A stretch of 64,000 nucleotides of DNA from Psychromonas sp. 14N.309.X.WAT.B.A12 (lineage in GTDB: Bacteria; Pseudomonadota; Gammaproteobacteria; Enterobacterales; Psychromonadaceae): NCBI RefSeq assembly GCF_030397575.1, contig NZ_JAPNXS010000003.1, positions 1 through 64,000 on the forward strand. Reading direction: 5' to 3'. A program made the translations under genes and the position numbers. Below, piece by piece: positions 10,682-33,184 of this stretch. Positions within the stretch are counted from its first letter, which is position 1, and every line of letters begins with the position of its first letter. The notes under the pieces are model-generated. The model was not told where the DNA came from. It did not search any database and saw only the letters and a list, made by a program, of their open reading frames with translations.

Positions 10682-11679
10682 AGGGCTTTATTCCTAATAC
10701 TGAGAAATACGAAGAAAGGCGCACCAATTAATGCCGTGATCACACCAACTGGTGTTTCAGCGGGAAAGGCAATGCCACGTGATAAAGCATCAGCCCAAAC
10801 TATTAAACAACTGCCTAATAATGCACTAACAGGTAACAATAAAAGATAGTTATTACACACTAATCGTCTTGCAATATGCGGCACGATTAACCCCACAAAA
10901 CCAATTGGTCCAACGACAGAAACGCTGGAAGCGGTTAACAAAATAATTGCGATACAAGATAAAAAGCGAGTGAAGGCGATATTAATGCCCAAACTCGTCG
11001 CTACCTCATTACCTAGTGCAAGTAGGTTAAGATTTTTAGCGACATAAATAGCAATGGCTAAACCAACTAGACTGCTTGGCCATAACAACTGCCATTGTTG
11101 CCAATCCATACTTGCTAAAGAACCGGATAACCAGGTGATCACGCTATACGCTCTATCATCGGCTAAGATGATTGCTGCGCGAGTGATCCCAATTAATAAA
11201 GCATTAATCGCGATCCCGGCCAAAATTAATTTTAATGGGTTACTACGAGCAGAGAAAAAACCGCCTAGAAAAATCACTAACGCACCGCTGATCAAACCGC
11301 CAACTGATGCTGATACTAAACTCGATACCTCTCCTAAAACATTAATACCAATACTGGCTAGTGCCATAAAGCAAGCTGCGCCAGAGTTAATGCCTAATAT
11401 AGAGGGAGAAGCAAGAGGGTTGCGTGTTAAGCCCTGCATCAGCACTCCGGCTACCGCTAAATTGCTACCAATTAATATCGCAACTAATAATCTTGGGATA
11501 CGCGTGGTTGCTAATATTTGCTGCTCAATACTCTGACTATCGAAATTAAATAAATAAGCTGAGATATGTGACAGGTCAAGCGGGAAGCTAGACCAAGCAA
11601 TAAGAGAATAAGCAAAGCTAAATAAGAGCAAAGTAAATGCGCAAACAAAGAGCAAAATATATCGAATAGAGAGGGGCAT
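10678..11679 (-). CDS. Iron-chelate ABC transporter permease (FecC-like)
   Basis: The 333-aa polytopic inner-membrane protein is the second FecCD-family permease. Landmarks are RIPRLLVAILIGSNLAVAG, LTRNPLASPSILGINSGAA, VVGPIGFVGLIVPHIAR and PVGVITALIGAPFF. Its LGINSGAACFMAL and LGNEVATSLGIN segments resemble FecC of the ferric citrate system. It is the first gene of the minus-strand unit and starts about 300 bp from the divergent receptor gene, so the promoters share a regulatory region with a Fur-like site. No strong ribosome binding site precedes the ATG. Confidence 0.92.
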   Translation of the reverse strand: MPLSIRYILLFVCAFTLLLFSFAYSLIAWSSFPLDLSHISAYLFNFDSQSIEQQILATTRIPRLLVAILIGSNLAVAGVLMQGLTRNPLASPSILGINSGAACFMALASIGINVLGEVSSLVSASVGGLISGALVIFLGGFFSARSNPLKLILAGIAINALLIGITRAAIILADDRAYSVITWLSGSLASMDWQQWQLLWPSSLVGLAIAIYVAKNLNLLALGNEVATSLGINIAFTRFLSCIAIILLTASSVSVVGPIGFVGLIVPHIARRLVCNNYLLLLPVSALLGSCLIVWADALSRGIAFPAETPVGVITALIGAPFFVFLSIRNKAL

Positions 11680-11851
11680 AATATTTTGAAATACCTAAGT
11701 GAAGGAAGAAGCTACCTTGTTTATTCGCTTAGGCCTTACAACAAAAGTCATATCACCTGTTAGATGTCGAAGATTCTATTTTAAAGAGTAATAACAATCA
11801 ATATCAAATAAAAGGATTAACTTAGTCAAAACGACTTTTTGCTCTTGTTAA

Positions 11852-11866
11852 TGATATAGATTATCA
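11852..11866. promoter_or_regulatory. Candidate Fur box
   Basis: TGATATAGATTATCA matches the 7-1-7 Fur consensus TGATAATnATTATCA at 12 of the 14 specified positions. It lies between the divergent ABC transporter unit and the TonB receptor gene, where iron repression is expected. Confidence 0.7.
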
Positions 11867-11984
11867 ATATTATTCGCATATAGATTCAAACACCACTGGA
11901 ATGAGTGAGTTGAACCAAAAAATTGTATGCAGAAGGCCTTAAACGGATTTTCTATCACCTAAACTACAAAATGAGCAATCGACA

Positions 11985-14099
11985 ATGAAATTTGTTATTA
12001 ATCCTGTGACGCACAGTCTCGCCCTAATTTTGGGATTAACCTCTTACGTATCCGCTGAAGAAACGACTACAGAACTTGAAACAATGGTCGTTGTTGGTAA
12101 ACAAAACTCTTATTTAAACCCAGAAGTAAGCACTGCCACTAAGAGTAATGTAGACCCTAAAGATACACCGCTGACGGTCAATGTTATCAACCAACAGTTT
12201 TTACAGGATATCCGTGCGGAATCATTGTCTGATGCTTACGGTTATACAACTGGGTTAAGTCAATCAGGTACAAATGCCGATAGTTTTAGCTTACGTGGTA
12301 TTGATACTGACCTTAATAACATTCAAGTGAATGGTTTACCGGGTTTAGCTTCTCGTTTTGGCTCTCCAACAACGGCTAATGTTGAACGTGTAGAAATTTT
12401 AAAAGGCCCTGCTTCTATCATGTACGGGCAAGTGCAACCGGGTGGTTTGATGAACATCATCACTAAAAAACCACAAGAGGAAGCATCATTTAGTTTTGAT
12501 ATTTCAGGTAATAGCTATAGTACTGGCGTCAGTGAATTTGGTGATGACAATAGCTTTACAGGATCGATAGATGCAACAGGCCCGCTAACGGATGATAAAA
12601 AATGGTTATATCGTTTTATAGTAAGTGCTGAAGATAATAATTCATATCGTGATGATGTTGATTCTCAAAACTATTACTTTTTCCCAACGCTAACTTACCG
12701 CCCTGATACAGAAACAGAAGTGACATTTGGTTTAGAGTTACAAACTGAACAACGTGTTCCAGATGATGGTTTAGTCGTGTTAGATAACGATATCAATCAA
12801 ATTGCTAAAATAGATACACATTATCAATCTGCTGATGATAATGGTGAAGATAAAGGTTTGGTGGCTTTTGCTACTTTTAATACCATGGTCACTGATGACT
12901 TTGATATTACAGTTGATTGGCGAAGTGTGTGGCATGAAGATACTCGTGAATACTACAGAACAACTTCAGTTGATAATACTACTGATACTGTTAGCTTAGT
13001 TGACCGTGAGAATGATAATAAACGTCAATATCACTTTATTGATACTAGAACCACTGGCAGTTTGTGGTGGGGTGACGTTGAGCACCAGTTATTAGCTGGC
13101 TTAAGTTTTGGCTATGAACAAAAAGATTTTGATCGTTTAACTTATGATGATGCTCGTACTGTAGATTTCTCTAATCCAACAGATTTAACTGGGCATGAAG
13201 GCGATTCGAGTGTTAACCATCGTATTACAGACTACATGAACTACGCAGCTTATCTACAAGATACAATTTATTTAAATGAGACTTGGACATTAATGACTGG
13301 TATTCGATATGCCCGTCAAGATGCTGATTTTGAAAGAGTAGATAGAGGGACAACTGATTCAAGCTCGAGTGATGCTTTTGTTTCTCAAGCTGGTGTGGTT
13401 TATCACTTATCTGAAGCAACTTCATTATATGCTAGTTACGGTGAAAGCTTTAACCCAAATAGTATCGAAGACACTGATGCTAACGGTGACCATTTCGACC
13501 CTGAAAAAGGTCGTCAATATGAAGTGGGTACCAAGACTGATCTATTTAATAACAAAGCAAACTTATCTATCGCTTACTTTGATATTAAAAAAACCAATGT
13601 GGTTGAGGAGAACCTAACAACCGGTGAAGATGAGTTGTTAGGTGGCGTTAAGAGCACGGGTGTTGAAGTAGAGCTGTTAATGATGCCGATAGAGAACTGG
13701 CAGGTGAAACTAGGTTACGCTTACGTTGATGCTAGAGTGTCAGATAACCCTGATGATAATATTGAAGGCAACCGTACTGCTGCGAGTGCTCTGCATGATG
13801 CTTATGTGTGGACTAAGTATAACTTCCCGTACAAAATTGCTGACGGTATCGTAGGGACTACATTAGGGGCAAATTACGAGGGTTCTCGTTACACTGATGA
13901 AGACTCAACAGACCGCGTTAAACTACCAGGTTATACAACTGTTGATATTGGTCTTCATTATGAAATTGAGCATTACCGCGCATCATTAAATATTGAAAAC
14001 TTATTTAATGAAATCTATTACTACGGTGGTTCTGGTGATACTAATATTTACGCCGGTGATCCACGTAATATCACCTTCAGCTTATCAGGTAAATTCTAA
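11985..14099 (+). CDS. TonB-dependent siderophore receptor
   Basis: The 704-aa outer-membrane receptor has a signal peptide ending near SYVSA and a TonB-box-like ETMVVVG close to the mature N-terminus. The plug domain carries FSLRGIDTD, NVERVEILKGPASIMYG and QPGGLMNIITKKP. A 22-strand barrel follows, ending in the canonical aromatic NITFSLSGKF. The plug is of the siderophore-receptor type (FhuA/FoxA/PvuA-like). It lacks the N-terminal signalling extension of FecA, and no FecI/FecR pair is nearby, so a Fur-controlled siderophore receptor is more likely than FecA itself. The binding-protein gene starts 2 bp after its stop. Confidence 0.93.
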   Translation: MKFVINPVTHSLALILGLTSYVSAEETTTELETMVVVGKQNSYLNPEVSTATKSNVDPKDTPLTVNVINQQFLQDIRAESLSDAYGYTTGLSQSGTNADSFSLRGIDTDLNNIQVNGLPGLASRFGSPTTANVERVEILKGPASIMYGQVQPGGLMNIITKKPQEEASFSFDISGNSYSTGVSEFGDDNSFTGSIDATGPLTDDKKWLYRFIVSAEDNNSYRDDVDSQNYYFFPTLTYRPDTETEVTFGLELQTEQRVPDDGLVVLDNDINQIAKIDTHYQSADDNGEDKGLVAFATFNTMVTDDFDITVDWRSVWHEDTREYYRTTSVDNTTDTVSLVDRENDNKRQYHFIDTRTTGSLWWGDVEHQLLAGLSFGYEQKDFDRLTYDDARTVDFSNPTDLTGHEGDSSVNHRITDYMNYAAYLQDTIYLNETWTLMTGIRYARQDADFERVDRGTTDSSSSDAFVSQAGVVYHLSEATSLYASYGESFNPNSIEDTDANGDHFDPEKGRQYEVGTKTDLFNNKANLSIAYFDIKKTNVVEENLTTGEDELLGGVKSTGVEVELLMMPIENWQVKLGYAYVDARVSDNPDDNIEGNRTAASALHDAYVWTKYNFPYKIADGIVGTTLGANYEGSRYTDEDSTDRVKLPGYTTVDIGLHYEIEHYRASLNIENLFNEIYYYGGSGDTNIYAGDPRNITFSLSGKF

Positions 14100-14101
14100 C
14101 T

Positions 14102-14998
14102 GTGTTTAAGTTTGTTTATCAGCGCCTTCTCGGCGCTTTAATACTGCTTTGTACTGCATTGTCAGTACAGGCAAGCATTGAAGTAGAGCATGAGCTGGGT
14201 ACGCTAACTTTACAACAAGCGCCTAAACGTATCGTGGTATTAGAGTATTCATTTATTGATGCACTTGCTTCAATTGGTATTTCACCTGTTGGTGTTGCAG
14301 ATGATCTAGACCCACAAAGAATCATTCCTGCTGTACGTGAGTTACTTGATCCATGGACTTCGGTCGGCATGCGTTCTCAGCCTAGCCTAGAGGTGATTGC
14401 ACGCCTTAAACCTGATTTGATTATTGGTGATATATACCGTCATCGTGTCAGTTATGAAGATCTTTCTCAAATAGCCCCTACCATGTTGCTAAAAAGCCGT
14501 GGAGAAAGTTACTTAGATGCACTTGAAGCCGCTAAAGTGATTGGTAAAGCGGTTGGTAAAGAGTCAGAAATGTTAGCGCGTATTAGCCAACATAAACAGT
14601 TAATGAATAGTTATCGTGAACGCTTTAAGAGTGACGAAACGATTCAATTTACGACAGTTAATGAACGTGGCATGTGGATGCATGGACCGCTGTCTTTTAC
14701 TGGTAGCTTGTTTAGTTATCTTGGTTTGAAATCAGCATTACCTGATTTGCAGGATAATCATTTAATACAAGCTAACTTAGAAGTGTTGTTACGTGTTAAT
14801 CCAGACTGGTTATTCTATGTAAGGAGCAAGCCCGTCACAGTGTTGGAAAGCTGGGAAAATAATCCATTATTTAAATTACTTAAAATAAGTAAAACAGGAC
14901 AAATGGTGCAGGTGTCTTCAGCACTTTGGTCTCTCAACCGTGGCATGCTAGCCGCAGAAGGCATTGCCAAAGAATTGGATGAAGCCTTAAATAACTAA
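14102..14998 (+). CDS. Periplasmic iron-chelate binding protein (FecB/PvuB-like)
   Basis: The 298-aa protein has a signal peptide (cleavage near SVQAS) and a periplasmic binding fold of the FecB type. FecB-like stretches include APKRIVVLEYSFIDALASIG, GVADD, SVGMRSQPSLEVIARLKPDLI and QIAPTMLLKSR. FecB carries ferric citrate; the related PvuB carries vibrioferrin, a citrate-based siderophore of marine bacteria. I therefore infer a citrate-type ferric chelate as cargo, without proof. The start is GTG, 2 bp after the receptor stop, with AGGTAAA upstream. It delivers cargo to the FecCDE-like transporter on the opposite strand. A long-stem terminator follows. Confidence 0.9.
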   Translation: MFKFVYQRLLGALILLCTALSVQASIEVEHELGTLTLQQAPKRIVVLEYSFIDALASIGISPVGVADDLDPQRIIPAVRELLDPWTSVGMRSQPSLEVIARLKPDLIIGDIYRHRVSYEDLSQIAPTMLLKSRGESYLDALEAAKVIGKAVGKESEMLARISQHKQLMNSYRERFKSDETIQFTTVNERGMWMHGPLSFTGSLFSYLGLKSALPDLQDNHLIQANLEVLLRVNPDWLFYVRSKPVTVLESWENNPLFKLLKISKTGQMVQVSSALWSLNRGMLAAEGIAKELDEALNN

Positions 14999-15798: not shown

Positions 15799-17661
15799 TT
15801 AGCTACCGATTACACCGCCATCATCTTTAGTGATCATCACAATAGTTGAACGTGGTTTGCTGTCACCACCTGCCGGGAAGTGGCCTGTTGGATGCTGAAT
15901 ACCCACAAACATAGTTTTTTGGTCTTCAGAGAAAGTTAAACCAGTCACTTCAGAGCCTATTGGGCCTGTTAAGAAACGACGTACTTCACCAGTTTCAGGG
16001 TCACCACATAACATTTGATTGTTACCTTGTCCTGCAAAGTCACCTTTGTTTGAGAAATCACCATCAGTTTGGATCCATAAACGACCTGCTTTATCAAAAC
16101 CAAGGCCGTCAGGGCTGTTAAACATATTGTCTTTATTAATGTTTGCGCTACCCGCGTATAAATCACCTTGGTGTACTGTAGGGTTACCAGCAATCAGGTA
16201 TAAATCCCATTTGAATGAAGCACTTGTATGGTCGGCATTAGTTGGCATCCAGCGAACAATTTGACCATAATGGTTTTCAGCACGTGGATTAACACCATCA
16301 ACATCTTGACCTTCTTTCACACCACGGTTTTTATTGTTAGTCAGTGTACAGAATACGTGTTTTTTGTCCGGGTGAACGGCAACCCATTCAGGGCGGTCCA
16401 TAGTTGTTGCACCCACTTGTGTAGCTGCTTTACGTGCAAAAATAAGTATTTCAGCTTGGCTATTAAAGCCATTCTCTTTAGTTAAACCATTTTTACCGTA
16501 GGTCAACTCTAACCATTCACCTTCACCTTCTAATTTATCTGCATCCATTTTAAACTTAGCGACGTATAAAGTACCTTCTTCAAGCAGTTGACGGTTTGCA
16601 CTGTTATTGCCTTCTTGGTATTTATTTTTAGAGATAAATTTATATAAGTGCTCGCCACGCTCATCATCACCTAGGTAAATCACAACATGGCCATCATCGT
16701 TGACAACAACCGCTGCATTTTCATGTTTAAAACGGCCTAATGCAGTACGTTTCATTGGCGTTGATGTTGGATCTTTAGGATCGATCTCTACAACCCAACC
16801 AAAACGATTTGCTTCTTGTGGGTTTACAGCAAGATCAAAACGCTTGTCTGTTGGATGCCATTGGTATTTGTTACCGTCTGTTTTAATACCGTAACGTTTG
16901 AAATTATCATCTAATGCAACTTCTTCTTCAGAGCCAAATAAACCGTTGAAGTTTTCTTCACATGTTAGGTAAGTGCCCCATGGCGTTTCACCATTTGCGC
17001 AATTATTGATAGTCCCTAATACTTTAGTCCCTGTTGGGTCCGCTTTAGTTTTTAACAAGTCATCGCCAGCAGCTGGACCTGTCATCATCATTTCAGTATT
17101 TGCAGTAATGCGGCGGTTCGCTTTACCGTTTTTATCTATTGACCATTTACCGTCTTTGCGAACTATTTCAACGATGGTATTACCATGAGCTGCTTGTGCT
17201 TTTTTCACATCATCAGCAGTCATCGCTTTACCTTGATGGTCAAAAAGGAATTGGTAATTAGTATATTCGTTGTTAATCGCCATAATGGCACGGTCTTTTG
17301 AAAGTGGGAAAATACTCATCCCATCAGTATTGTCACCAAACTGCATGGCTTGTGTTTTTGCATCTTGTTTACCGTTGGCATTGAATGCTGGCGCATCTGG
17401 GAAAATTGGGTCACCCCATGAGATTAAGTTACTTGTGCTGTAACCTTTTGGTACAACAACATTATCGCTCGTTGATGCCGGAATTTGTGTGAAGTTTAAA
17501 AGCTTACTGTCCATGCTTGCTGCAATTGCTTTTGCTACTGGGCTAACGGCTAAAAATGCACCTGCCCCGACTGCTGCTGTACCCATTAAAAAACGACGAC
17601 GTGATAAACGTGCGTCAATCATGCTGCTAAAGTCCGTTTCTTTATCTAATAAATCCGTCAT
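15799..17661 (-). CDS. phoX: PhoX-family alkaline phosphatase (DUF839), Tat-exported
   Basis: PhoX is a Ca2+/Fe-dependent alkaline phosphatase common in marine bacteria; it releases phosphate from organic esters outside the cytoplasm. The 620-aa protein has a twin-arginine signal (SRRRFLMGTAAVGAGAF). The body is the DUF839 propeller, with GTYLTCEENFNGLFG, GRFKHENAAVV, YLGDDERGEHLYKF, DRPEWVAVHP and NSPDGLGFDKAGRLWIQTDG. I moved the start from 17679 to ATG 17661 because AAAAAGGTAATAAAC precedes the latter, while the upstream ATG follows a pyrimidine-rich run. A possible Pho box lies 67 nt upstream. Confidence 0.93.
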   Translation of the reverse strand: MTDLLDKETDFSSMIDARLSRRRFLMGTAAVGAGAFLAVSPVAKAIAASMDSKLLNFTQIPASTSDNVVVPKGYSTSNLISWGDPIFPDAPAFNANGKQDAKTQAMQFGDNTDGMSIFPLSKDRAIMAINNEYTNYQFLFDHQGKAMTADDVKKAQAAHGNTIVEIVRKDGKWSIDKNGKANRRITANTEMMMTGPAAGDDLLKTKADPTGTKVLGTINNCANGETPWGTYLTCEENFNGLFGSEEEVALDDNFKRYGIKTDGNKYQWHPTDKRFDLAVNPQEANRFGWVVEIDPKDPTSTPMKRTALGRFKHENAAVVVNDDGHVVIYLGDDERGEHLYKFISKNKYQEGNNSANRQLLEEGTLYVAKFKMDADKLEGEGEWLELTYGKNGLTKENGFNSQAEILIFARKAATQVGATTMDRPEWVAVHPDKKHVFCTLTNNKNRGVKEGQDVDGVNPRAENHYGQIVRWMPTNADHTSASFKWDLYLIAGNPTVHQGDLYAGSANINKDNMFNSPDGLGFDKAGRLWIQTDGDFSNKGDFAGQGNNQMLCGDPETGEVRRFLTGPIGSEVTGLTFSEDQKTMFVGIQHPTGHFPAGGDSKPRSTIVMITKDDGGVIGS

Positions 17662-17727
17662 GTTTATTACCTTTTTCATTTATTTAAAGGGGGGGATAAA
17701 AATCGAGCTCTAGACTAAAGCAGTAAG

Positions 17728-19402: not shown

Positions 19403-19744
19403 ATGACAGAATCTAAACTTATTCCTTACCGATTACCCTTTGCTATATTTGTTTTCTTTATTACTTATATGCTACTAACCCAAACTTTTTTCGTGCAGAT
19501 TCCTTTATTAACTAGCGAGTTAATTCATCATCTGTATGACCCATTTGTTGTTGCTAAACAAACGGATATGGTTGCACTTATTTATGGTATTTTTGCTGGA
19601 ATAATCGGACATTTTTTATTTGGTAAACGATGTGAAATTGAGCCACAAGTGAATAAAAAAGGTTTATTAAAAGGGTTAGGCGTACTGGTCTTAATTATTG
19701 CTGCTTACGGTTATAACTTAGTACAGCAGTCCTCGATTGTTTAA
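19403..19744 (+). CDS. Small membrane protein of unknown function
   Basis: The 113-aa protein has three likely membrane helices: FAIFVFFITYMLLTQTFFV near the N-terminus, MVALIYGIFAGIIGHFLFG in the middle, and LGVLVLIIAAYGYNLV near the end. Short charged loops separate them. AGAAGAAAAAA precedes the ATG. It has no metal or catalytic motif and I do not recognise the family. It lies alone, with the TetR-linked VOC gene about 370 bp downstream on the same strand; the operator copy lies between them, so it is probably not part of that unit. Confidence 0.7.
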   Translation: MTESKLIPYRLPFAIFVFFITYMLLTQTFFVQIPLLTSELIHHLYDPFVVAKQTDMVALIYGIFAGIIGHFLFGKRCEIEPQVNKKGLLKGLGVLVLIIAAYGYNLVQQSSIV

Positions 19745-19998
19745 TACCTCTAGTCTGTTTCCTTAACTGCTTTTTACTATTTGTAATGGGCAGTTAATAC
19801 TTCTATTTTTCCCCTTCTATTGTGCATATCCTAAGTGATGATCTTAATCACTTGGTTATGATCACACTTTATTATAAAAAATAACTTTTCCCAACAAAAT
19901 TTAACTTATTGATTATTAATGCTATTTAAACCCTCTTTTTGAATATTCATCACTTTTCTTGTTATTCGATAGCGTTTATTTTCAAAAAATAGTTTGAC

Positions 19999-20014
19999 TA
20001 TCTATCGGTAGGTA
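19999..20014. promoter_or_regulatory. TetR-type operator copy A, upstream of the VOC gene
   Basis: TATCTATCGGTAGGTA is a near-palindrome identical to copy B (21519) and, allowing for orientation, close to copy C (22512). It lies about 100 bp upstream of the VOC gene, in the 371-bp gap 19745-20115, which otherwise shows no gene. Confidence 0.75.
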
Positions 20015-20115
20015 TGTGAATATTCGTGTCGTTAACAACGACACAACGTTACCAAGTGGCTATTGATTGAGACTTAAATAACGTTACTTCATCTTTTTAA
20101 AACAGGGATTAAATT

Positions 20116-20484
20116 ATGATTGGATACACTACGATTGGTTCAAAAGACTTAGATAAAGCCGTTTCATTTTACGATTCATTACTTGAATTAGTTGGTGGTA
20201 AAAGAGTCATGGAAATGGACAGAATTAAATTTTACGGAACAGATGCTGGTGGCGCAATGCTAGCTGTTTGTACTCCTCATGATAACAATCCACAAACTGC
20301 TGGTAACGGTCAACAAATTGCTATTCCTGGTGGTTCAATTGAAGGTGCACAAGCGCTTTACAATAAAGCTATTGAACTAGGTGCAACAGACGCCGGTGAA
20401 CCAGGTCAACGTTTTGACTTCTTCTATGGGTCATACGTTTATGACTTGGATGGCAACAAACTTTGTTTCTTCCACATGACCTAA
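20116..20484 (+). CDS. VOC family protein (glyoxalase/dioxygenase fold)
   Basis: The 122-aa protein has the vicinal-oxygen-chelate pattern of two beta-alpha-beta-beta-beta units. It starts with IGYTTIGSKDLDKAVSFYDSLLELVGGKRVME and ends with FYGSYVYDLDGNKLCFFHM, where YDLDGNKLC is the usual metal-binding and lactoylglutathione-lyase-like ending. Members of this small cytosolic subgroup are often annotated as glyoxalase-like and linked to resistance or detoxification, but the substrate is not predictable. AGGGATTAAATT precedes the start. The shared TetR-type operator lies upstream, so it is probably repressed by the regulator at 21671. Confidence 0.88.
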   Translation: MIGYTTIGSKDLDKAVSFYDSLLELVGGKRVMEMDRIKFYGTDAGGAMLAVCTPHDNNPQTAGNGQQIAIPGGSIEGAQALYNKAIELGATDAGEPGQRFDFFYGSYVYDLDGNKLCFFHMT

Positions 20485-20502
20485 GTGAATTAGTTCATTT
20501 TC

Positions 20503-20570
20503 AGCAAGAGCAGCTTATATCAATCACACTAATATAATTGGTATCAACAGTGCTCTTGCTTTTTTCTTTT
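20503..20570 (+). terminator. Intrinsic terminator with a repeat-derived loop
   Basis: AGCAAGAGCA (20503-20512) pairs with TGCTCTTGCT (20551-20560), followed by TTTTTCTTTT. The 38-nt loop contains ATATCAAT...ATATAATTGGTAT, which matches the two ends of the dispersed repeat seen at 40.8, 41.2 and 60.9 kb. Confidence 0.75.
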
Positions 20571-20799
20571 TCTAACAGCAAAACCAATCTATCTAAACTA
20601 TCTTCTTGTCATAACCCCTTTTAAAAATCCTAGCTCAAACGTGACTTTAAACAACGCATATATTTAAATTTTTAATGTCTTTAATAATGATAACAATAAG
20701 TTATATTAAGTGATGTGTTTCTAGGTTATTAGTTTTGGGGAGTTGTAATAGCTGCTTTAAAGGAAGGAATGACCACTTAAACAGTGGCCATTTATAGGA
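20571..20799. other. Intergenic region between convergent VOC and bicupin genes
   Basis: This AT-rich spacer of about 230 bp shows no gene and no clear terminator for the bicupin gene on the minus strand. Confidence 0.4.
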
Positions 20800-21492
20800 T
20801 TATGCATTTGTTACGCGTGCTATTTGTTCTTCAACTTGTGTTAAATGTCCGGTCTTAACCCATATCGTTGCCCCTTGTTCACCCGCTTTAACCTGCAAGT
20901 TACTGCCTATTGGGGTACGTAACCAACTGTGTTTATTTAGGGTATCTGTAGACTCTTGTGCTGAGCCTTCAAGTACCAATAACTCTGCGCCGCCTTTTGC
21001 TTCAAGCGAGTAGGTCGCATTTGCTTGAAAGTGCAATACACTAACTTCTTCAATATCATCTAAATAAAGCGGAGTGACAGCAACTTGGTTATTATCATGA
21101 AGTTGTGTTTTACCCATTTTATTCATCTGTAAACGAACATGTGTACGATCATTTGCATCGAACTGCCAAAGTTTTACCAACATAGTGCAACCGCCTTTAG
21201 AGCTTGGTTGATGGCGAGACTGTGGTGGGTTTCGTATATATGAACCAGCTGGGAATTGTCCATGCTCATCTTCAAAAATACCTTCTAGCACAATAAACTC
21301 TTCCCCACCGGTGTGAATGTGTTCACTGAACTCACTGCCTGGCTCATAACGAACGATGGTAGTTGCTCTTGCTACTTCAGCGCCTACTCTATCGAGAGGC
21401 TTACGATAAACGCCCGCCATAGGTGATGCTATCCACTCTTGAAGCTGGCTGTGTACAACAGCGCGTTGACTAAAATCAGCTGCGATTTTCAT
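20800..21492 (-). CDS. Double-cupin protein with ChrR-like cupin domain
   Basis: The 230-aa cytosolic protein has two cupin modules. The first (about residues 40-115) carries the metal-site pattern GSEFSEHIHTGGEEFIVLEG and a later histidine in SRHQPS. That gives the HxH...E...H arrangement of ChrR-type cupins, which bind zinc or iron in anti-sigma factors that sense singlet oxygen. The second module (about 140-220) keeps the fold but lacks the histidines. No sigma factor lies beside it, so an enzymatic or sensor role is more likely than anti-sigma activity. GGAGG precedes the ATG. It is divergent from tetR across operator copy B. Confidence 0.85.
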   Translation of the reverse strand: MKIAADFSQRAVVHSQLQEWIASPMAGVYRKPLDRVGAEVARATTIVRYEPGSEFSEHIHTGGEEFIVLEGIFEDEHGQFPAGSYIRNPPQSRHQPSSKGGCTMLVKLWQFDANDRTHVRLQMNKMGKTQLHDNNQVAVTPLYLDDIEEVSVLHFQANATYSLEAKGGAELLVLEGSAQESTDTLNKHSWLRTPIGSNLQVKAGEQGATIWVKTGHLTQVEEQIARVTNA

Positions 21493-21518
21493 ATTACCTC
21501 CAATTTTGATATTATAGT

Positions 21519-21534
21519 TATCTATCGGTAGGTA
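21519..21534. promoter_or_regulatory. TetR-type operator copy B between the bicupin and tetR genes
   Basis: TATCTATCGGTAGGTA is identical to copy A. It sits 27 bp from the bicupin start and upstream of tetR, the standard place for autoregulation plus control of a divergent target. Confidence 0.8.
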
Positions 21535-21670
21535 GTTATATGGTTTAATTGTTTATAAGTCAACTTTAAAAGGGAACTTGGCGGTTAGCTGCCTTACTCA
21601 GAATGCATTATTACTTGTAAATAGTGATGCTCTGCTTGATAATTTATATTCAATGATGGGGAATACAAGA

Positions 21671-22189
21671 ATGAGCAAAAAAGAAGCATTATTAAAAGCT
21701 GCAGAAGATAAAGTAAGACTAGGTGGCTATAATAATTTCAGTTTCCGAGAAATCGCTAATGAAGTGGGTATAAAAAGTGCCAGTGTCCACTACCATTTCC
21801 CTACCAAAGCGGATTTAGGCGCTGAATTAGCACATCAATATACGAATGCTTTTTTAGGTGCATTAGGCGATGTAGATGAACTTAAAGCTGCGAATAAAGA
21901 TCCTATTGAAGCTTATACACAACTGTTCAGAAGTGCGTTACTCAACGATGACAAAATGTGTTTATGTGGTTTGTTAGGCGCTCAAAATGAAAGCTTACCT
22001 GAAAAGGTTCGTTCAGAAGTAAAACGTTTTTTTGACCTGAACTTAGCGTGGTTACAAAAAGCGCATATTGCTAATGGAGAAAACGAACCATTACATGCAG
22101 CTATCCTTACCGTCAGCACATTAGAAGGTGCAATGATGATCAGTAAGGCATTGAATGATCACAGCTATTTTAAACTAGCTACCCAGTAA
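21671..22189 (+). CDS. TetR/AcrR family transcriptional regulator
   Basis: The 172-aa protein has an N-terminal TetR helix-turn-helix (about residues 20-50: NFSFREIANEVGIKSASVHYHFPTKADL). A helical ligand-binding and dimerisation domain follows. A CxC motif in MCLCGLLGAQ (near residue 97) is conserved in one TetR subgroup and could be redox- or electrophile-reactive; this is inference. I take ATG 21671 because GGGGAA lies 7 nt upstream and the protein starts at the usual distance before the helix-turn-helix. Two in-frame ATGs lie 15-18 bp further up, and the longest frame begins with TTG at 21578. It probably represses itself, the bicupin, the VOC gene and the CmcJ-like gene. Confidence 0.92.
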   Translation: MSKKEALLKAAEDKVRLGGYNNFSFREIANEVGIKSASVHYHFPTKADLGAELAHQYTNAFLGALGDVDELKAANKDPIEAYTQLFRSALLNDDKMCLCGLLGAQNESLPEKVRSEVKRFFDLNLAWLQKAHIANGENEPLHAAILTVSTLEGAMMISKALNDHSYFKLATQ

Positions 22190-22597
22190 AAGTATCGTGG
22201 GTACACTTAATTCTCTGTCATGTTAAGTGTATCCAGTGTCATATCTTATTAAGTACTCCCTCACTATTTATTGCCTAAACCAAAGCATTCTAATTTCATT
22301 ATCTCTTATCCAAAAACCTTTGCCGTGAGTTTTAGGCAGAAGGCGATACTCATATCAAACTCACCTTATAGCTAGCACATTTAATTGAATTTTTAATTTA
22401 TTGATTTTTAATTACTTTTTTAATTTCACACCTTCATTTTTATAGATCGCATTAAAAAATGACTAAATATAGATTGCTATTAGTAACTAATTAATCTTTA
22501 ATAACTAAAGTTACCTATCGGTAGATAGTTTGGTTTGCATAGCTAACAACGAGAGTGAACAACAGTTGATAGTTATAGTTAAATAGCAGAGGTTGAT
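22190..22597. other. 408-bp intergenic region with promoter and operator C
   Basis: It holds operator copy C near its end. A loose inverted repeat (TGCCTAAA near 22272 and TTTAGGCA near 22331) could be part of a terminator for tetR but is weak. No gene is visible. Confidence 0.4.
22512..22527. promoter_or_regulatory. TetR-type operator copy C upstream of the CmcJ-like gene
   Basis: TACCTATCGGTAGATA shares the CTATCGGTAG core with copies A and B; the flanking TA-Y and R-TA positions keep the dyad. It lies 70 bp upstream of the gene at 22598. Confidence 0.75.
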
Positions 22598-23425
22598 ATG
22601 AGTACTAATACAGTTGAAAAAACAACACTTCATTTTATTAAGGCAAGTGCTACAGGTACACCCGTGATCAATTATTCAGGCTTTGATGAGCAGCAGGAAT
22701 ATAGCGCACATTATGGCTTTGAAGAAACGGAAGTCATCAATGCAAGGGCGGTTTCAACAGAAACTGTTTTTAACTTAGACAACGCTGGTTTTCAGCTTAC
22801 GCATTTTGAACCCAATGAAGTTGATTTTTTAGAAAGTGAAACGGTTAAAGCTGACTATTATCCGCAAGTAGAAGCTTTGATAAAAGTACAGACGGGCGCA
22901 GCGCATGTGGTTGCATTTGATCATACCGTACGTCGTGGCATTAAAGCTTCCAACCGTCATCCTGCTTACCATGTGCATAACGATTACACACATCAAACCG
23001 GACCGATAAGAGCACAAACCGTATTGGATAAAGCTATTCTAAAACGCTTTGCAGGAAAGCGCATGGTTCAAATAAACCTATGGCGTTCAATTGATGGTGT
23101 GATAGAGAAAGATCCCTTAGCATTTTTGGATTTCTCTACGCTAGATAGTAACGATTTAGTGAAGGCTAATATTTCATTTAACGATATGCACTCAACACAA
23201 AAGCATCAAGGTGAGATATTCGCACTGAAAAAGAATAAACACCAAAAATGGTATTACTACCCTGAGATGGATGGTAGCGAAGCCGTATTAATTAAAGGCT
23301 TTGATAGTGAACCCTCAAGCGCTCGCTTTGCGATGCATACCGCTTTCCCATTAGCTAATCAGGGCGAACACAACAAACCAAGACAAAGCATTGAAACAAG
23401 AACCTACGCATTTTTTGATGTTTAA
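22598..23425 (+). CDS. CmcJ/NvfI family putative oxidoreductase
   Basis: The 275-aa cytosolic protein resembles the CmcJ/NvfI family, named after a cephamycin 7-alpha-methoxylation protein and a fungal isomerase. The hallmark is the central VVAFDHTVRRG...PAYHVHNDYT segment, then MVQINLWRSIDG and a C-terminal HTAFPLANQ...RQSIETRTYAFFDV. The histidines and aspartate in FDHT, YHVHND and MHTAF could bind iron, as in Fe(II)/2-oxoglutarate enzymes; this is inference. GCAGAGGTTGAT precedes the ATG. With operator C upstream it is the fourth probable target of the local TetR regulator. Confidence 0.82.
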   Translation: MSTNTVEKTTLHFIKASATGTPVINYSGFDEQQEYSAHYGFEETEVINARAVSTETVFNLDNAGFQLTHFEPNEVDFLESETVKADYYPQVEALIKVQTGAAHVVAFDHTVRRGIKASNRHPAYHVHNDYTHQTGPIRAQTVLDKAILKRFAGKRMVQINLWRSIDGVIEKDPLAFLDFSTLDSNDLVKANISFNDMHSTQKHQGEIFALKKNKHQKWYYYPEMDGSEAVLIKGFDSEPSSARFAMHTAFPLANQGEHNKPRQSIETRTYAFFDV

Positions 23426-23549: not shown

Positions 23550-24218
23550 CTATTTAAAAAAGGGTAATACTATATCGTGTAAAAGGTACTGACCTTGTTC
23601 TGTATAGATAATAAGTAAGGTGGCGATATTAAAAAATACAGTAACGCGGTAAGTACTAATAAATTCGCTTTTACTTGTTTTGTGTCGTAATACTTTTTGT
23701 GCAATTAGCGCTCCCGGCCACCCACCAATCAAAGAAAGAAAATGCAATGTCGCTACTGAAGTTCTCCAACGGCCTGTTTGTGCTGAATACTTGTCTTGTG
23801 CATAAACAAGGATAGTAATTAAGCTGATCAATACGTAGGCGAAACCAATAAAAAATGGAAGTTTACGGCTGAATACAGCAAGTACTAACCCAATACAAAA
23901 AAGTACGGTAAATATAGAACTCAATATATAGCTTTTAGGTTTACTGTTCTTAGGTTTACTATTTTTAGGGGAATGACGTTCATGGCTTTTAGTCTTTTCT
24001 TTATTATTATCTCGTGCAAATCTAATATTCGTCGCTTTATATCGATTACCACTTTCATGTACTAATTCGTAGATAATAAGTTCACCATTAACTGGCCTAC
24101 GTGATCTTGAATTAAAGGCTTTAATATGGACAAAAGCACGAGTACCGCCACCGTTTGGTTCCACAAAACCAAACCCTTTATCGTCATTCCAGTTTATTAC
24201 TTTACCTTGAAACTTCAT
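23550..24218 (-). CDS. Cold-shock domain fused to DUF1294 membrane domain
   Basis: The 222-aa protein starts with a cold-shock nucleic-acid-binding domain (residues 1-65: GKVINWNDDKGFGFVEPNGGG, RAFVHIKAF). A basic linker rich in Lys, Ser and Pro follows. The membrane part has about four helices; the third-quarter segment HFLSLIGGWPGALIAQKVLRHKTSK is the DUF1294 signature. The fusion is known in marine gammaproteobacteria, but its function is not established; RNA binding at the membrane is a guess. AAGGAACAC precedes the start. It lies immediately downstream, in the direction of transcription, of the gene-cassette array. Confidence 0.9.
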   Translation of the reverse strand: MKFQGKVINWNDDKGFGFVEPNGGGTRAFVHIKAFNSRSRRPVNGELIIYELVHESGNRYKATNIRFARDNNKEKTKSHERHSPKNSKPKNSKPKSYILSSIFTVLFCIGLVLAVFSRKLPFFIGFAYVLISLITILVYAQDKYSAQTGRWRTSVATLHFLSLIGGWPGALIAQKVLRHKTSKSEFISTYRVTVFFNIATLLIIYTEQGQYLLHDIVLPFFK

Positions 24219-28449: not shown

Positions 28450-29400
28450 TCAAGTGTACCTATTTAATAAATCAGGACTATGTCTGAGTTTATATTGGGT
28501 TGGGTTAACCCCGAAAAACTTTTTAAAGCTACGGCTAAAGTGACTTGTACTTAAGTAACCTGTGGCGAAGCAAACTTGCGTTACTGAGCTGTTTTTCCTT
28601 AGCATTTCTGCTGCTTTTTTGAGGCGTAGTTGGAATAGGAAGTCTTGAGGCGTGCATCCGATAGTACGTTTAAACTCAGAAAAAAACTTAGTGCGACTCA
28701 TGCATGATAGCTTGATCAAAGCTTCAATATTGATCGTTTCTCCTAAGTGTTTATATAAGTAGGCAACCACGGAATTAATGCCATTGTGCTCTGGGTCGTT
28801 GAGGCTGTGACAAATGATAAAGTCGCGAGTTTGTTCTCTCAATAATCGCGTAATGAGCTCACTCACCGCGAGATCAACCATAAAACTCCTATCTGGATGG
28901 TTCTCTGAAAAGATATTGATCATGCGATTTAATAAGGTTTGAGTCTCCGTATTATGATGCGTGTGCATTAGTTTATTGTCGTATTGCCACTCCTGTTGAT
29001 AGGTTGATAATGGCGCATTAGCGTTTAGTTTATCGCAAACTTTTTTTACTTTGTTATGGCTAATTTCAATGGCAATACAGGTGGTGGGGGTGGTTAGGCT
29101 AGCCATTGGGAAATCAATTTGAATAGGGCGATTAGGTGCCATGATGAATGATTCATGTGGAAAAAACTCTGTTTCAAAGCGTCTATGTAGGCTGTGCATT
29201 ATTTTTTTGCCTGAAAGCATGCCGCAAAACATGAGTTGATCAGAGGCGAGCTTAACGTTGCTAGCAGGTTCAAATGTGTCATATATGCTCAATTCAGCAT
29301 CTTCTCCGGCAAAAGATGTTTTGTTCTCTACCAAAACTTGAGGGTTGTTTCTTTGATCTTGAACATGTTGGCTTATCATTTTTGTCACACTCCCTGCCAT
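28450..29400 (-). CDS. AraC family transcriptional regulator
   Basis: The 316-aa protein has an N-terminal effector or dimerisation region (about 1-200). A C-terminal AraC/XylS DNA-binding domain with two helix-turn-helix units follows (about 215-308: INIEALIKLSCMSRTKFFSEFKRTIG, then VTQVCFATGYLSTSHFSRSFKKFFGVNPTQYK). The arrangement divergent from an aldehyde dehydrogenase gene, with a gap of about 100 bp, suggests it controls that gene, probably in response to an aldehyde or alcohol; this is inference. No operator was identified in the gap. Confidence 0.9.
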   Translation of the reverse strand: MAGSVTKMISQHVQDQRNNPQVLVENKTSFAGEDAELSIYDTFEPASNVKLASDQLMFCGMLSGKKIMHSLHRRFETEFFPHESFIMAPNRPIQIDFPMASLTTPTTCIAIEISHNKVKKVCDKLNANAPLSTYQQEWQYDNKLMHTHHNTETQTLLNRMINIFSENHPDRSFMVDLAVSELITRLLREQTRDFIICHSLNDPEHNGINSVVAYLYKHLGETINIEALIKLSCMSRTKFFSEFKRTIGCTPQDFLFQLRLKKAAEMLRKNSSVTQVCFATGYLSTSHFSRSFKKFFGVNPTQYKLRHSPDLLNRYT

Positions 29401-29504
29401 TTGAAACTGACAGTCAATATTTTTGAATTAACAGTCATGCATATAAAAAATCTACGGATAGGATGAATATCACACAGAGGCATACAAATAACTGAGAGGT
29501 GTTT

Positions 29505-31022
29505 ATGATTTATCCAAATCCAGGTTCTGCAGAGTCACAAATTACGTTTAAATCTCATTATGATAATTACATTGATGGGCAATGGGTCGCACCGGCTAAT
29601 GGGCAATATTTTACTAATAAAACGCCAGTAACTGGTGAAGATGTTTGTGAAGTTGCTCGTTCAGATCAGCAAGATATTGACCTTGCTTTAGATGCTGCGC
29701 ATAAGGCTAAACAAGCTTGGGCGAGCACTTCTGTCACTGAGCGTTCTAATATTCTACTTAAAATTGCAGACAGAATTGAAGCTAATTCAGAGTTACTTGC
29801 GTTAGTTGAAACGTGGGATAACGGTAAATGTATTCGAGAGACGATGGGAGCTGATGTTCCCTTAGCTGTTGATCATTTTAGATATTTTGCTGGTTGTATC
29901 AGAGCGCAAGAAGGTTCGTTAGGTGAGATTGATCAGCATACCGTGGCTTATCACTTTCATGAGCCCTTGGGTGTGGTTGGACAAATTATTCCTTGGAACT
30001 TTCCGCTATTGATGGCTGCTTGGAAAATACCCCCTGCATTGGCTACTGGTAATTGTATTGTGCTTAAACCTGCTGAACAAACGCCATTATCTATTTTGTT
30101 TTTGATGGAGATTATTGGTGATTTATTACCAGCTGGCGTGTTGAATATTGTGAATGGTTTTGGTGAAGAAGCAGGGCAAGCCTTAGCGACTTCTAAACGC
30201 ATTGCTAAGATTGCCTTTACTGGCTCTAGCCCTATTGGTAAACATATTTTGCAATGTGCGGCAGATAATTTGATCCCTTCTACTGTTGAGCTGGGCGGTA
30301 AGTCACCTAATATTTTCTTTGCCGATGTGATGAACCATGAAGATGCTTTTATCGATAAATGTTTGGAAGGTGCTGCATTAGCGTTCTTTAATCAAGGGGA
30401 AGTATGTACCTGTCCATCTCGTTTGCTGGTGCAAGAGTCAATTGCCGATGAGTTTATCGAGCGTTTGATTGCGCGCACTCAAAAAATTATACAAGGCAAT
30501 CCATTTGATACTGACAGTCAAATTGGTGCACAAGTTTCTAAAGCGCAATATGACAAGATTTTATCCTATATTGAAATCGGTAAAGATGAGGGCGCAGAAG
30601 TGTTAACGGGTGGGGCCATTGAGAAGGTGGATGGGGCACATAATGGTTACTACATTCAACCTACTTTATTAAAAGGCAGTAATCATATGCGTGTTTTCCA
30701 AGAAGAAATTTTTGGGCCTGTGATCAGTATTACTACTTTTAAAGATGAAGAAGATGCTTTAAAAATAGCTAATGACAGTGAGTTTGGATTAGGCGCGGGT
30801 TTATGGACAAGGGATAGTAATATTGCTTACCGTATGGGGCGCGGTATTCAAGCTGGGCGCGTATGGACAAACTGTTATCATCTCTATCCTGCCCATGCTG
30901 CGTTTGGTGGGTATAAACAATCTGGTATTGGACGTGAGAACCATAAAATGATGTTAGAGCACTATCAACAAACGAAGAACATGTTGGTGAGCTACGATAT
31001 TAATCCGATGGGATTCTTTTAG
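29505..31022 (+). CDS. NAD(P)-dependent aldehyde dehydrogenase (AldB/ExaC-like)
   Basis: The 505-aa cytosolic enzyme oxidises aldehydes to acids. Motifs: cofactor-binding [12 protein letters not shown] and [11 protein letters not shown], the general-base Glu in VELGGKSPN, and the catalytic Cys in [13 protein letters not shown]. The last motif, with a second Cys two residues on, is typical of acetaldehyde dehydrogenases of the AldB/ExaC class. The end [18 protein letters not shown]...GFF also fits. I take ATG 29505 because GAGAGG lies 5 nt upstream; a GTG two codons earlier is possible. It is probably controlled by the divergent AraC gene and ends at a clear terminator. Confidence 0.93.
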
Positions 31023-31051
31023 TTCATTGTGAAAGTGAGTCTGTAAAACAA

Positions 31052-31079
31052 TAAAGCCGCTTATGATAAGCGGCTTTAT
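31052..31079. terminator. Bidirectional intrinsic terminator
   Basis: TAAAGCCGCTTA pairs with TAAGCGGCTTTA across a very short loop, between the convergent aldehyde dehydrogenase and alginate lyase genes. Confidence 0.85.
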
Positions 31080-31105
31080 AACAAATAAACCTTGTAAGGA
31101 GTGAG

Positions 31106-33184
31106 TTATAGCTCGATCACTACATCTTCACCGTCGATATTCAGTGTTAATGTTGTATCTGTTAGGTTGTACGAAACTTCTGTTTTAGGACCGTTCAATT
31201 TACTTGGTACTAATAGCGTTAGAATGTTGTGCTCTTTCTTCGCTTTAAACTTCGCTTCAACATGACGATGAATTTCAAGATCTTTGTATTCGCTTGGGTC
31301 AACTTCACCAAAGCCTTCTACATTTTCAATTGAAAGTAGATCATCTTTGCTGTCATTGATAAATGAAACGTCTAGTTGTGCGTTTTCACCAATGATTTTG
31401 AAAGTGTCTGTCGCTGTTTCAGTACTAAATGTTGTATGCAGTAGCCAAGTCAGATCTTGCTCTGATTTAAGTGTTGCTAGGTCACGCATTACAAATACTT
31501 TACCTTTAGCAAACCAGATTTTACGCTTGTAAGATTCAAGATCTGGGTTGTGGAATTGGTAAGACGTTGATGCATCACCTTCAACAAATAACAGGTCTGA
31601 TTCTGTATCGAAGTCGGTAATTTTACCGCCAGCTTCCACACAGTAGCGATCTTGATGTTCGCCTTCAAAGTTAGTCGTTGTATTTTCAGCGTACTGACCT
31701 TTACCACCAAATAACGGTAAGTTTTTAGAGAAAGTACGACGACGCCATTTGATGTGCATATCTACACCGAAACCACCGTAGTAACCTGTGATAGCTGCTA
31801 AGGTATCGCCAAATGCATGAAGAGTATAGGCGTTTTGGTCACCGTGTGAGTGACTGATAGAACCGAATGGGCTACATTTGTAAACCATGTGAATATGCTC
31901 ATCACGGTTTGTCATGTTGCTATGGAAACCAGCCCAACCTGTGATTGGGAAGACTTTAAGCTGTGGTTCATCTGAAGGTTTAACTTCAGGCATATCGTTC
32001 CATAGGTAATCAAAGCGTAAGTCATCGTAACCAAAATCCCACCAACCGAAGTTGTAGAATTTAGTATGTGCTTCCGTGTCACGTGCTTTCAGTTGGTTGT
32101 AGTACCAAATGTATTCAGGTTTGTTGTTAACACCTGCAAAATGTTTGATGTTGTAAGCTAATTTCAAACCTGGGAAATCACCAATACTTGATTGATCACA
32201 GAAACTTGCACGTTTGGAGTGAACAGGCATACAGTACATGATGAAGTCACCTGTATTTTTGTAGAACTCTTTATTAAACATGTTGATAGAGGTGTAGCTT
32301 TTCAGAAGGTCAAAAGATTCACCTAGGAAGGCCATTTGCGTGTTCCAGTAATCTGGACCTTCAGCCCAAGCTCCATCTTCTCCGCCCCATGGTGGGTAAT
32401 GTACAGCATAGTATTCAATACCGTATTCAATGTATTCACGTGCTTTAGGGTATTCATTGTATAGTGCGATACAGGTTGGGATCACCGCAGATGAAATTGA
32501 ACGAACACCATGGCTATTAAGTGGGTTAGCCAGTAGATCTACTGTTACTTGTAGATGATGCATGATCTCTTCTAAGCGAATGATAAGTGCTTGTTTTACT
32601 GTTTCACGTTCTGCATCAGAGAAGTATGCATGTAGCCAATCATAACCCCAAGCCATTGCTGCAATCACACGAAACGCGGCTTCATCATTATAACCACGTG
32701 AGGTTACACCTTCTGGATCGTAAGCAGCTAATTGTAATGTCCATGCTTTTGCTTTGGCGATGATTGCTTCATCTTCTAGTACGATACCAGCGATTGATAG
32801 GTTACGAGTTGCGTTGAAAGCTTCTTGACAGCTAACGTACATTTGACGCCAGTAAGGACGCCACAATGAAGCTTTACCAACGGTTTCTTCAGGGTAAGCT
32901 TTTGGTTCTTCATAAGGTGCTACGTCTAAAAATTTATTTGTTGAGTTATTCATGAAAGCATCAAACTTGCAGTAGCCTGCATTATCTTTCAGGTTAGCTC
33001 TAAAAGCAGGTAGATCTTTACTTTGAACCAATAGACGAGGGTGCTCTACACTCAAATTATCCAAAAAAGACAGATCAATATCAGCTTTTTGAACTTGAAC
33101 TGGCATCACATCAAGAAGATTACCAGCAGATTTGTCGTTTTCTAATTTAATCGCCTTGATCGCATCAAAAGATTTGTTAGACAT
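31106..33184 (-). CDS. Exolytic oligoalginate lyase, polysaccharide lyase family 15
   Basis: The 692-aa protein resembles Agrobacterium Atu3025 (PL15), which removes monosaccharides from alginate oligomers. An alpha/alpha-barrel part (DUF4962-like) runs to about residue 400, with ASLWRPYWRQMYVSCQEA, YNDEAAFRVIAAMAWGYDWL and WAEGPDYW. A heparinase II/III-like beta-sandwich part follows, with GSISHSHGDQNAYTLHAFGD. Catalytic candidates aligned by eye are His225 and Arg228 (NSHGVRS), Tyr279 and a His at 445 or 447. It lacks the roughly 90-residue N-terminal beta domain of Atu3025 and any signal peptide, so it is probably cytosolic. No endolyase or uptake gene is nearby. Confidence 0.88.
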   Translation of the reverse strand: MSNKSFDAIKAIKLENDKSAGNLLDVMPVQVQKADIDLSFLDNLSVEHPRLLVQSKDLPAFRANLKDNAGYCKFDAFMNNSTNKFLDVAPYEEPKAYPEETVGKASLWRPYWRQMYVSCQEAFNATRNLSIAGIVLEDEAIIAKAKAWTLQLAAYDPEGVTSRGYNDEAAFRVIAAMAWGYDWLHAYFSDAERETVKQALIIRLEEIMHHLQVTVDLLANPLNSHGVRSISSAVIPTCIALYNEYPKAREYIEYGIEYYAVHYPPWGGEDGAWAEGPDYWNTQMAFLGESFDLLKSYTSINMFNKEFYKNTGDFIMYCMPVHSKRASFCDQSSIGDFPGLKLAYNIKHFAGVNNKPEYIWYYNQLKARDTEAHTKFYNFGWWDFGYDDLRFDYLWNDMPEVKPSDEPQLKVFPITGWAGFHSNMTNRDEHIHMVYKCSPFGSISHSHGDQNAYTLHAFGDTLAAITGYYGGFGVDMHIKWRRRTFSKNLPLFGGKGQYAENTTTNFEGEHQDRYCVEAGGKITDFDTESDLLFVEGDASTSYQFHNPDLESYKRKIWFAKGKVFVMRDLATLKSEQDLTWLLHTTFSTETATDTFKIIGENAQLDVSFINDSKDDLLSIENVEGFGEVDPSEYKDLEIHRHVEAKFKAKKEHNILTLLVPSKLNGPKTEVSYNLTDTTLTLNIDGEDVVIEL

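Follow-up and report, generated by a model that had tools for sequence, protein, structure and literature searches.

We analysed a 64,000-nucleotide stretch of the genome of Psychromonas sp. 14N.309.X.WAT.B.A12 (contig NZ_JAPNXS010000003.1, positions 1 to 64,000), hereafter the window, in which a gene for a TetR-family regulator lies among genes for a vicinal oxygen chelate (VOC) protein, a ChrR-like bicupin and a CmcJ/NvfI-family oxidoreductase. Comparative analysis of sequences indicates that this regulator and a 16-bp near-palindrome, as its defined operator, make up a genuine regulon that occurs in Gammaproteobacteria, Alphaproteobacteria and Herbaspirillum. The operator, its pairing with the regulator, the target genes and the promoter geometry of the VOC and cupin genes are all supported by such comparisons. 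As for function, we moderately favor a response to electrophiles or oxidants.

A 16-bp palindrome marks three promoters

The first-pass annotation of the window had noted three copies of one near-palindrome, upstream of the VOC gene, between the bicupin gene and tetR, and upstream of the CmcJ-like gene. All three 16-bp copies are there, and the four gene identities that it gave hold by family models:

19999..20014, no strand assigned: operator 1, TATCTATCGGTAGGTA, upstream of the VOC gene; relatives have counterpart sites ahead of their VOC orthologue
20116..20484, + strand: VOC fold protein, 122 amino acids (PF00903)
20800..21492, - strand: ChrR-like bicupin, 230 amino acids (PF12973 in two stretches; no anti-sigma domain)
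21519..21534, no strand assigned: operator 2, TATCTATCGGTAGGTA, in the intergenic region common to the bicupin gene and tetR
21671..22189, + strand: TetR-family regulator, 172 amino acids (PF00440, 37.9 bits, cut-off 24)
22512..22527, no strand assigned: operator 3, TACCTATCGGTAGATA, upstream of the CmcJ/NvfI-like gene
22598..23425, + strand: CmcJ/NvfI-family oxidoreductase, 275 amino acids (NF041278, CmcJ_NvfI_EfuI, 231 bits, cut-off 80)

The motif is not scattered at random. Across the whole genome (3,773,730 bases), the symmetric 16-bp form TAYCTAYCGRTAGRTA matches exactly at these three operators only. The next-best match, with one mismatch (G000:C7:58044), lies within an open reading frame (ORF) and was rejected as a promoter site for that placement. 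With up to three mismatches, the pattern of the first-pass annotation gives eight two-strand matches in the window against a shuffle mean of 1.07; these eight correspond to five places, each of the three operators being matched on both strands. The statement that the window holds no other copy is wrong for the 10-bp core CTATCGGTAG, which recurs at 4802-4811 inside an ORF that reads as a trypsin-like protease. Genome-wide, the core has eight matches and its reversed control six, so only the 16-bp palindrome is informative, and we discarded the core as evidence. This near-background frequency is what would favor chance repeats with no regulation behind them, an explanation that we regard as practically negligible given that it is contradicted by the genome-wide test of the 16-bp form and by conservation across genomes.

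The palindrome and the regulator occur together across genomes

After viewing the sites in relatives, we drew up a generalised site, TAYCTAYYRRTAGRTA, which G000:C7:58044 also fits exactly, and compared its distribution with that of the regulator in 295 genomes of the order, an even draw from the larger order that includes the window's own genome. TetR was scored as present at E 1e-25, a threshold at which a weaker TetR would count as absent, and was found in 13 genomes. Of these 13, 12 contain the generalised site, as do 12 of the 282 TetR-less genomes (Fisher 4.7e-14). In G276, the remaining TetR genome, tetR is directly preceded by a one-mismatch site. The reversed control pattern is found in 29 of the 295 genomes, all of them TetR-less, and by that measure the 12 TetR-less genomes with TAYCTAYYRRTAGRTA do not exceed background. 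The 16-bp motif, which the first-pass annotation had tied to this TetR, does track with it. Within the genus, the window-derived pattern occurs in five of 24 genomes, all five of which carry TetR; the regulator is present in eight of the same 24 and absent from 15. One of the 24, G021, was part of this pattern search and not of the 295-genome set.

Since the pattern was partly derived from genomes of the order, a stricter test is provided by tetR loci of distant lineages (41-54% identity; rhizobia, Pseudomonas, Herbaspirillum and others), which played no part in deriving it. We fetched 80 tetR loci, 55 nearer and 25 distant. Among the 25 distant loci, 23 have a site with at most one mismatch in the 500 bp upstream of tetR (shuffle mean 0.0, 100 shuffles); among the 55 nearer ones, 43 do (shuffle mean 0.02). 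In total, the 80 loci hold 125 sites with at most one mismatch versus none for the reversed control, and 74 loci have at least one. Site and regulator thus stay together in distant lineages despite differing neighbor genes.

Probable target genes carry the site also when apart from tetR

Close homologues of the VOC protein (at least 82% identity) were found in seven of the 295 genomes and close CmcJ homologues (at least 63% identity) in five, and every one of these genomes carries the TetR (Fisher 4.8e-11 and 7.2e-8, respectively). The converse fails: a close VOC is missing from six of the 13 TetR genomes and a close CmcJ from eight. The co-conservation with tetR that had been predicted for the target genes is therefore one-sided, in that close VOC and CmcJ homologues occur only alongside this TetR while many TetR genomes lack them. 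Near-full-length cupin matches of at least 54% occur in 11 genomes, 10 with TetR; weaker cupins are widespread (108 of 295 genomes at E 1e-30).

Genome G154 (82% complete) is probably a metagenome bin, in which binning error is possible. It has tetR on contig C91, the VOC gene on C62, the CmcJ gene on C78 and the cupin gene on C209. A genome-wide search gave three exact sites, one upstream of each of VOC and CmcJ and one immediately ahead of the predicted cupin start, a coincidence of sites and genes that argues strongly for a regulon acting in trans. Genome G023, which has VOC, cupin and TetR and lacks CmcJ, has only the two corresponding sites. In G275, two exact sites (L113, 8159-8226) lie about 400 bp upstream of a VOC gene of 48% identity, with tetR on a different contig; this gene may be a further member in trans. 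A site lies within 450 bp upstream of CmcJ in seven of the 11 CmcJ sequences in our neighborhood table, in which loci L044 and L123 are one contig, counted twice both here among the gene clusters and in the CmcJ residue counts below. We also examined five stretches of TetR-less genomes, two of them taken from the same genome, that contain weaker homologues (VOC in three, with 51-56% identity; cupin in one, with 54%; CmcJ in one, with 29%); even with two mismatches allowed, none of these stretches has a site. The proposal that shared sites and a local tetR define one regulon is thus supported, with the site marking the three genes even when they lie apart from tetR.

Such placement is also what would be expected if the palindrome belonged to another regulator and tetR were a mere neighbor, and binding of TetR to the palindrome is itself a prediction. 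Nevertheless, site and TetR co-occur across genomes and persist together in distant lineages with differing neighbors, and the five TetR-less stretches lack the site. We consider this alternative very improbable.

Beside tetR, the enzymes are exchangeable. Within 4.5 kb of the gene, the 80 loci hold a cupin (49 loci), a glutathione S-transferase (GST; 42), a flavin adenine dinucleotide (FAD)-dependent amine-oxidase-like enzyme (18), a twin-arginine translocation (Tat)-type alpha/beta hydrolase (15), short-chain dehydrogenase/reductase (SDR)-cluster proteins (14), a VOC protein (11) or a CmcJ homologue (7), and eight loci have none of these; domains were assigned from cluster representatives, and the Tat signal was named by reading the sequence. 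The cupin belongs mainly to the nearer set (47 of 55 loci, versus 2 of 25 distant ones). VOC and GST never occur together near tetR (hypergeometric 1.1e-4, uncorrected for kinship). At a threshold of E 1e-20, no GST of the tetR-neighbor kind is present in the window genome, and G005 and G018, which do have this GST, give no VOC match. From this pattern, VOC seems to replace GST.

Operator position at the VOC and cupin promoters

Three promoter elements were read from the sequence of the window:

19994..19999, + strand: -35-like hexamer (TTGACT) for the VOC gene, followed by a spacer that the operator occupies and by a weak -10
21535..21540, - strand: -10-like hexamer (TATAAC) for the bicupin gene, directly adjoining operator 2
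21558..21563, - strand: -35-like hexamer (TTGACT) for the bicupin gene, separated from the -10 by 17 bp

A generic scan for promoters and terminators at this locus gave no excess over shuffles (8 versus 12.5; 2 versus 2.6), and it missed the bicupin TATAAC because it requires T at the last position. We compared 113 distinct site contexts, related by descent and oriented to the target gene. The sequence TTGAC occurs 88 times in them, 55 times at an operator offset of either -5 or -28 to -31. VOC contexts have TTGAC abutting the operator in 14 cases out of 15, and the operator thus fills the spacer between -35 and -10; in 8 of 11 cupin contexts it lies 28-31 bases upstream, so that the operator follows the -10. 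The predicted layouts of the VOC and cupin promoters are those of a steric repressor.

The regulator and its paired cysteines

We set the start of the window TetR at 21671, where Met is invariant in 13 of 13 orthologues, instead of using the longer TTG ORF. The residue numbers Cys102, Cys104 and Lys164 are counted from an ATG at 21656; from 21671, the cysteines are 97 and 99. These are the only two cysteines of the protein, and both lie in a motif, M-C-L-C-G, that is invariant in 76 of 76 stop-free translations. Residue counts omit five of the 80 TetR translations, which contain stop codons (L136, L139, L170, L186 and L187). Two of these loci, L186 and L187, from a Hahella metagenome-assembled genome and an uncultured Marinomonas record, have an apparently broken tetR (in-frame stop; frameshift), with sequencing error a possible cause.

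An AlphaFold model of the window TetR (pLDDT, predicted local distance difference test, 95) finds TetR-type regulators as its best listed PDB matches. Two uncharacterised structures of this family rank ahead of E. coli NemR (4yze, template modelling score 0.81), which we take to be the first characterised protein in that order. By sequence and fold together, the closest are the uncharacterised TetR proteins 3on4 (Legionella) and 2g7s (Agrobacterium). The C-x-C is present in 2g7s, and 3on4 keeps the first cysteine of the pair; a literature search by code gave no described function for either, as judged by titles among the matches listed. A search on the cysteines of CifR likewise gave nothing usable among the matches listed.

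The TetR fold is common to NemR and the window protein, and two residue positions are of interest. A cysteine (Cys102 in the window protein) aligns with NemR Cys106 in 76 of 76 sequences, and the position of NemR Lys175 aligns with Lys164, where 44 sequences have Lys, 23 Arg, 7 Ile and 2 Asn; the window protein has Lys. Cys106 and Lys175 form the bleach switch of NemR, whose targets include nemA and gloA, as described in the portions available of the two sources (PMC5297802, PMC7464077). These two genes, gloA encoding lactoylglutathione lyase, are among NemR's neighbors; NemR, as the window regulator is predicted to do, controls a VOC-family enzyme. The differences are clear as well. NemR is 23% identical to the window TetR, and only its Cys106 is matched, whereas the window protein has an invariant second cysteine two residues on. 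The window-type regulon has other genes (bicupin, CmcJ, GST) and three separate operators in place of one operon. By analogy, the window TetR is probably NemR-like in its working mode, yet it is not a NemR member.

A second parallel is AltR of Pantoea, in its partly available description a local, thiosulfinate-responsive TetR repressor with one essential cysteine and a repeated palindrome across its tolerance cluster (PMC13178969). By that description, AltR has other target genes, and its printed operator, CAATCTAC-N6-GTAGATTG, has a spacing unlike that of TAYCTA-YYRR-TAGRTA (PMC13178969).

Target proteins

The VOC protein was rejected as a glyoxalase I. In an alignment with E. coli GloA, which is approximate for proteins so distant, Tyr4 lies opposite H5 and Cys117 opposite E122, and neither E56 nor H74 is paired with a Glu or a His; we take these four GloA residues to be its metal ligands.

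The CmcJ/NvfI-like protein scores above the cut-off of its family model, and its H127, D129, H247 and R262, aligned with NvfI, are invariant in 11 of 11 sequences. NvfI, a fungal endoperoxide-forming Fe(II)/alpha-ketoglutarate oxygenase, has residues 135, 137 and 250 named as iron ligands, with the types printed as His-His-Asp in the part of the paper that we could consult (PMC8292354); we matched these positions by counting along the chain. The metal-site positions align. The window protein is distant from NvfI and CmcJ (PDB matches with E about 1e-15) and sits in a stress-type regulon, and we regard it as a predicted oxygenase.

In its first cupin domain, the bicupin keeps H58, H60, E64 and H94 in 54 of 54 homologues. 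They form an H-x-H-x3-E motif with a His 30 residues on, as do His141, His143, Glu147 and His177, the cupin zinc ligands given for the RpoE anti-sigma factor ChrR in the accessible part of its description (PMC6852236). Unlike ChrR, the window protein has two cupin domains, starts at the cupin and has no N-terminal zinc anti-sigma domain; the NCBIfam ChrR model gives 34.7 bits, far below its cut-off of 124.5. On these grounds we rejected the bicupin as an anti-sigma factor.

The four shared zinc-ligand positions bear on a further explanation, in which the conserved-Cys TetR senses oxidised lipids or products of singlet oxygen, the regulon is a TetR-run counterpart to part of the RpoE-ChrR response, and the bicupin is a stand-alone ChrR-type sensor or enzyme. 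A gene order SDR-cupin-FAD enzyme in loci L158 and L172 also agrees with it. However, the bicupin has no anti-sigma domain and nothing connects the inducer with singlet oxygen, although no search aimed at a sigma factor in the neighborhoods was made; we consider this explanation improbable.

Function of the regulon

We propose that the local TetR repressor binds the palindrome TAYCTAYYRRTAGRTA at the VOC, bicupin and CmcJ/NvfI-like promoters, and probably at its own, and that it would there block sigma-70-type promoters. An electrophile or oxidant would free it from DNA, most likely through the conserved C-x-C thiols as in NemR, and the induced enzymes would then transform or detoxify the inducing class of compounds. 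In relatives, this regulator and operator are accompanied not by VOC and CmcJ but by other enzymes of detoxification type: a GST, an SDR, an FAD-dependent oxidoreductase or a Tat-type alpha/beta hydrolase. Direct binding, thiol sensing, the nature of the inducer and the substrates are what we infer; taken whole, this explanation seems to us a reasonable, somewhat better than even, bet. The first-pass annotation had guessed at detoxification of a reactive electrophile or oxidised metabolite, and that guess now has an indirect basis, by analogy, in the rank of NemR as nearest characterised structure, in the invariance of the cysteine at its position 106, and in the partner enzymes (GST, SDR, FAD oxidoreductase, alpha/beta hydrolase).

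The main competing explanation is a catabolic regulon with an inert ligand. Here the regulon is real and serves the breakdown or building of one metabolite, the TetR responds to a plain, non-reactive ligand, and the enzymes are alternative steps. Most TetR proteins bind their ligands non-covalently. The GST and hydrolase matches lean weakly to two catabolic families, maleylacetoacetate isomerase and 3-oxoadipate enol-lactonase, at scores far below cut-offs. NvfI, the relative of the CmcJ-like protein, is a biosynthetic oxygenase according to the part of its description at hand (PMC8292354). Yet the set of genes differs greatly between loci, a better fit to a general response than to a single pathway; moreover, all 76 of 76 sequences have the C-x-C, and NemR is the closest structure that has been characterised. 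We therefore hold the metabolite explanation to be the less likely, if a serious one.

Several observations weigh against an electrophile or oxidant response run through this operator. The enzymes beside tetR could equally be catabolic. The cysteines through which NemR responds to electrophiles, Cys21 and Cys116, are not kept: none of the 76 sequences has Cys at either position (69 Val and 7 Ala at the first; 53 Asp, 17 Glu, 4 His, 1 Arg and 1 Asn at the second). A Cys at the Cys106 position is found in another TetR structure as well, 3dpj, and for that reason a thiol switch is a presumption here. The generalised site TAYCTAYYRRTAGRTA was built from sites in some of the very genomes later counted, and two of its matches in TetR genomes, G000:C7:58044 and G001:C275:7099, lie within ORFs, not at promoters. 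Only 25 of 53 GST, 4 of 15 FAD-enzyme, 3 of 6 CmcJ and 0 of 13 SDR contexts show the promoter geometry, and a good -35 is lacking from the CmcJ promoter of the window itself. Finally, four of the 11 CmcJ sequences (L120, L041, L129 and L140, the last on a short contig) have no site within 450 bp upstream, which makes the membership of CmcJ in the regulon weaker there; in those four loci, CmcJ may depend on another promoter.

A broader reading, which we offer as tentative, is that this TetR belongs to a widespread, undescribed thiol-switch class with an invariant M-C-L-C-G and its own 16-bp operator, found in marine Gammaproteobacteria and soil Alphaproteobacteria. It would run a plug-in detoxification cassette for one class of endogenous electrophiles, such as lipid peroxidation products or endoperoxides. 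The cassette would comprise a metal-free VOC protein, a GST, an NvfI-like oxygenase, an SDR or an FAD enzyme, with a ChrR-type bicupin usual in marine members. Among the matches listed, a literature search gave no description of this regulon, a weak negative since subscription papers are poorly covered, and a search with the operator string gave no bacterial-regulator paper by title among the matches listed.

The regulon links, through one regulator and a defined operator, poorly understood enzymes: a ChrR-like bicupin, a bacterial CmcJ/NvfI oxygenase and a VOC protein without the glyoxalase metal site. It offers a handle for finding the inducer and hence the substrate class, and, in addition to NemR and AltR, another TetR protein on which thiol sensing can be tested.

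Other features of the window

Just upstream of operator 1, a small ORF (19403-19744), probably encoding a membrane protein, has counterparts of about 61-63% identity in three congeners and no family match. An iron-siderophore uptake set occupies 8949-14998, with an ABC ATPase and two permeases on the - strand and a TonB-type receptor and a periplasmic binding protein (PF01497) on the + strand; all except the PF01497 protein were named by reading the ORFs. A PhoX-type alkaline phosphatase (643 bits) lies at 15799-17679. At 28450-33184, an AraC-type regulator, an aldehyde dehydrogenase-like ORF (named by reading) and a DUF4962/heparinase II/III-like protein adjoin one another, a set possibly concerned with polysaccharide use. 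At 23550-24218, an N-terminal cold-shock domain is fused to DUF1294.

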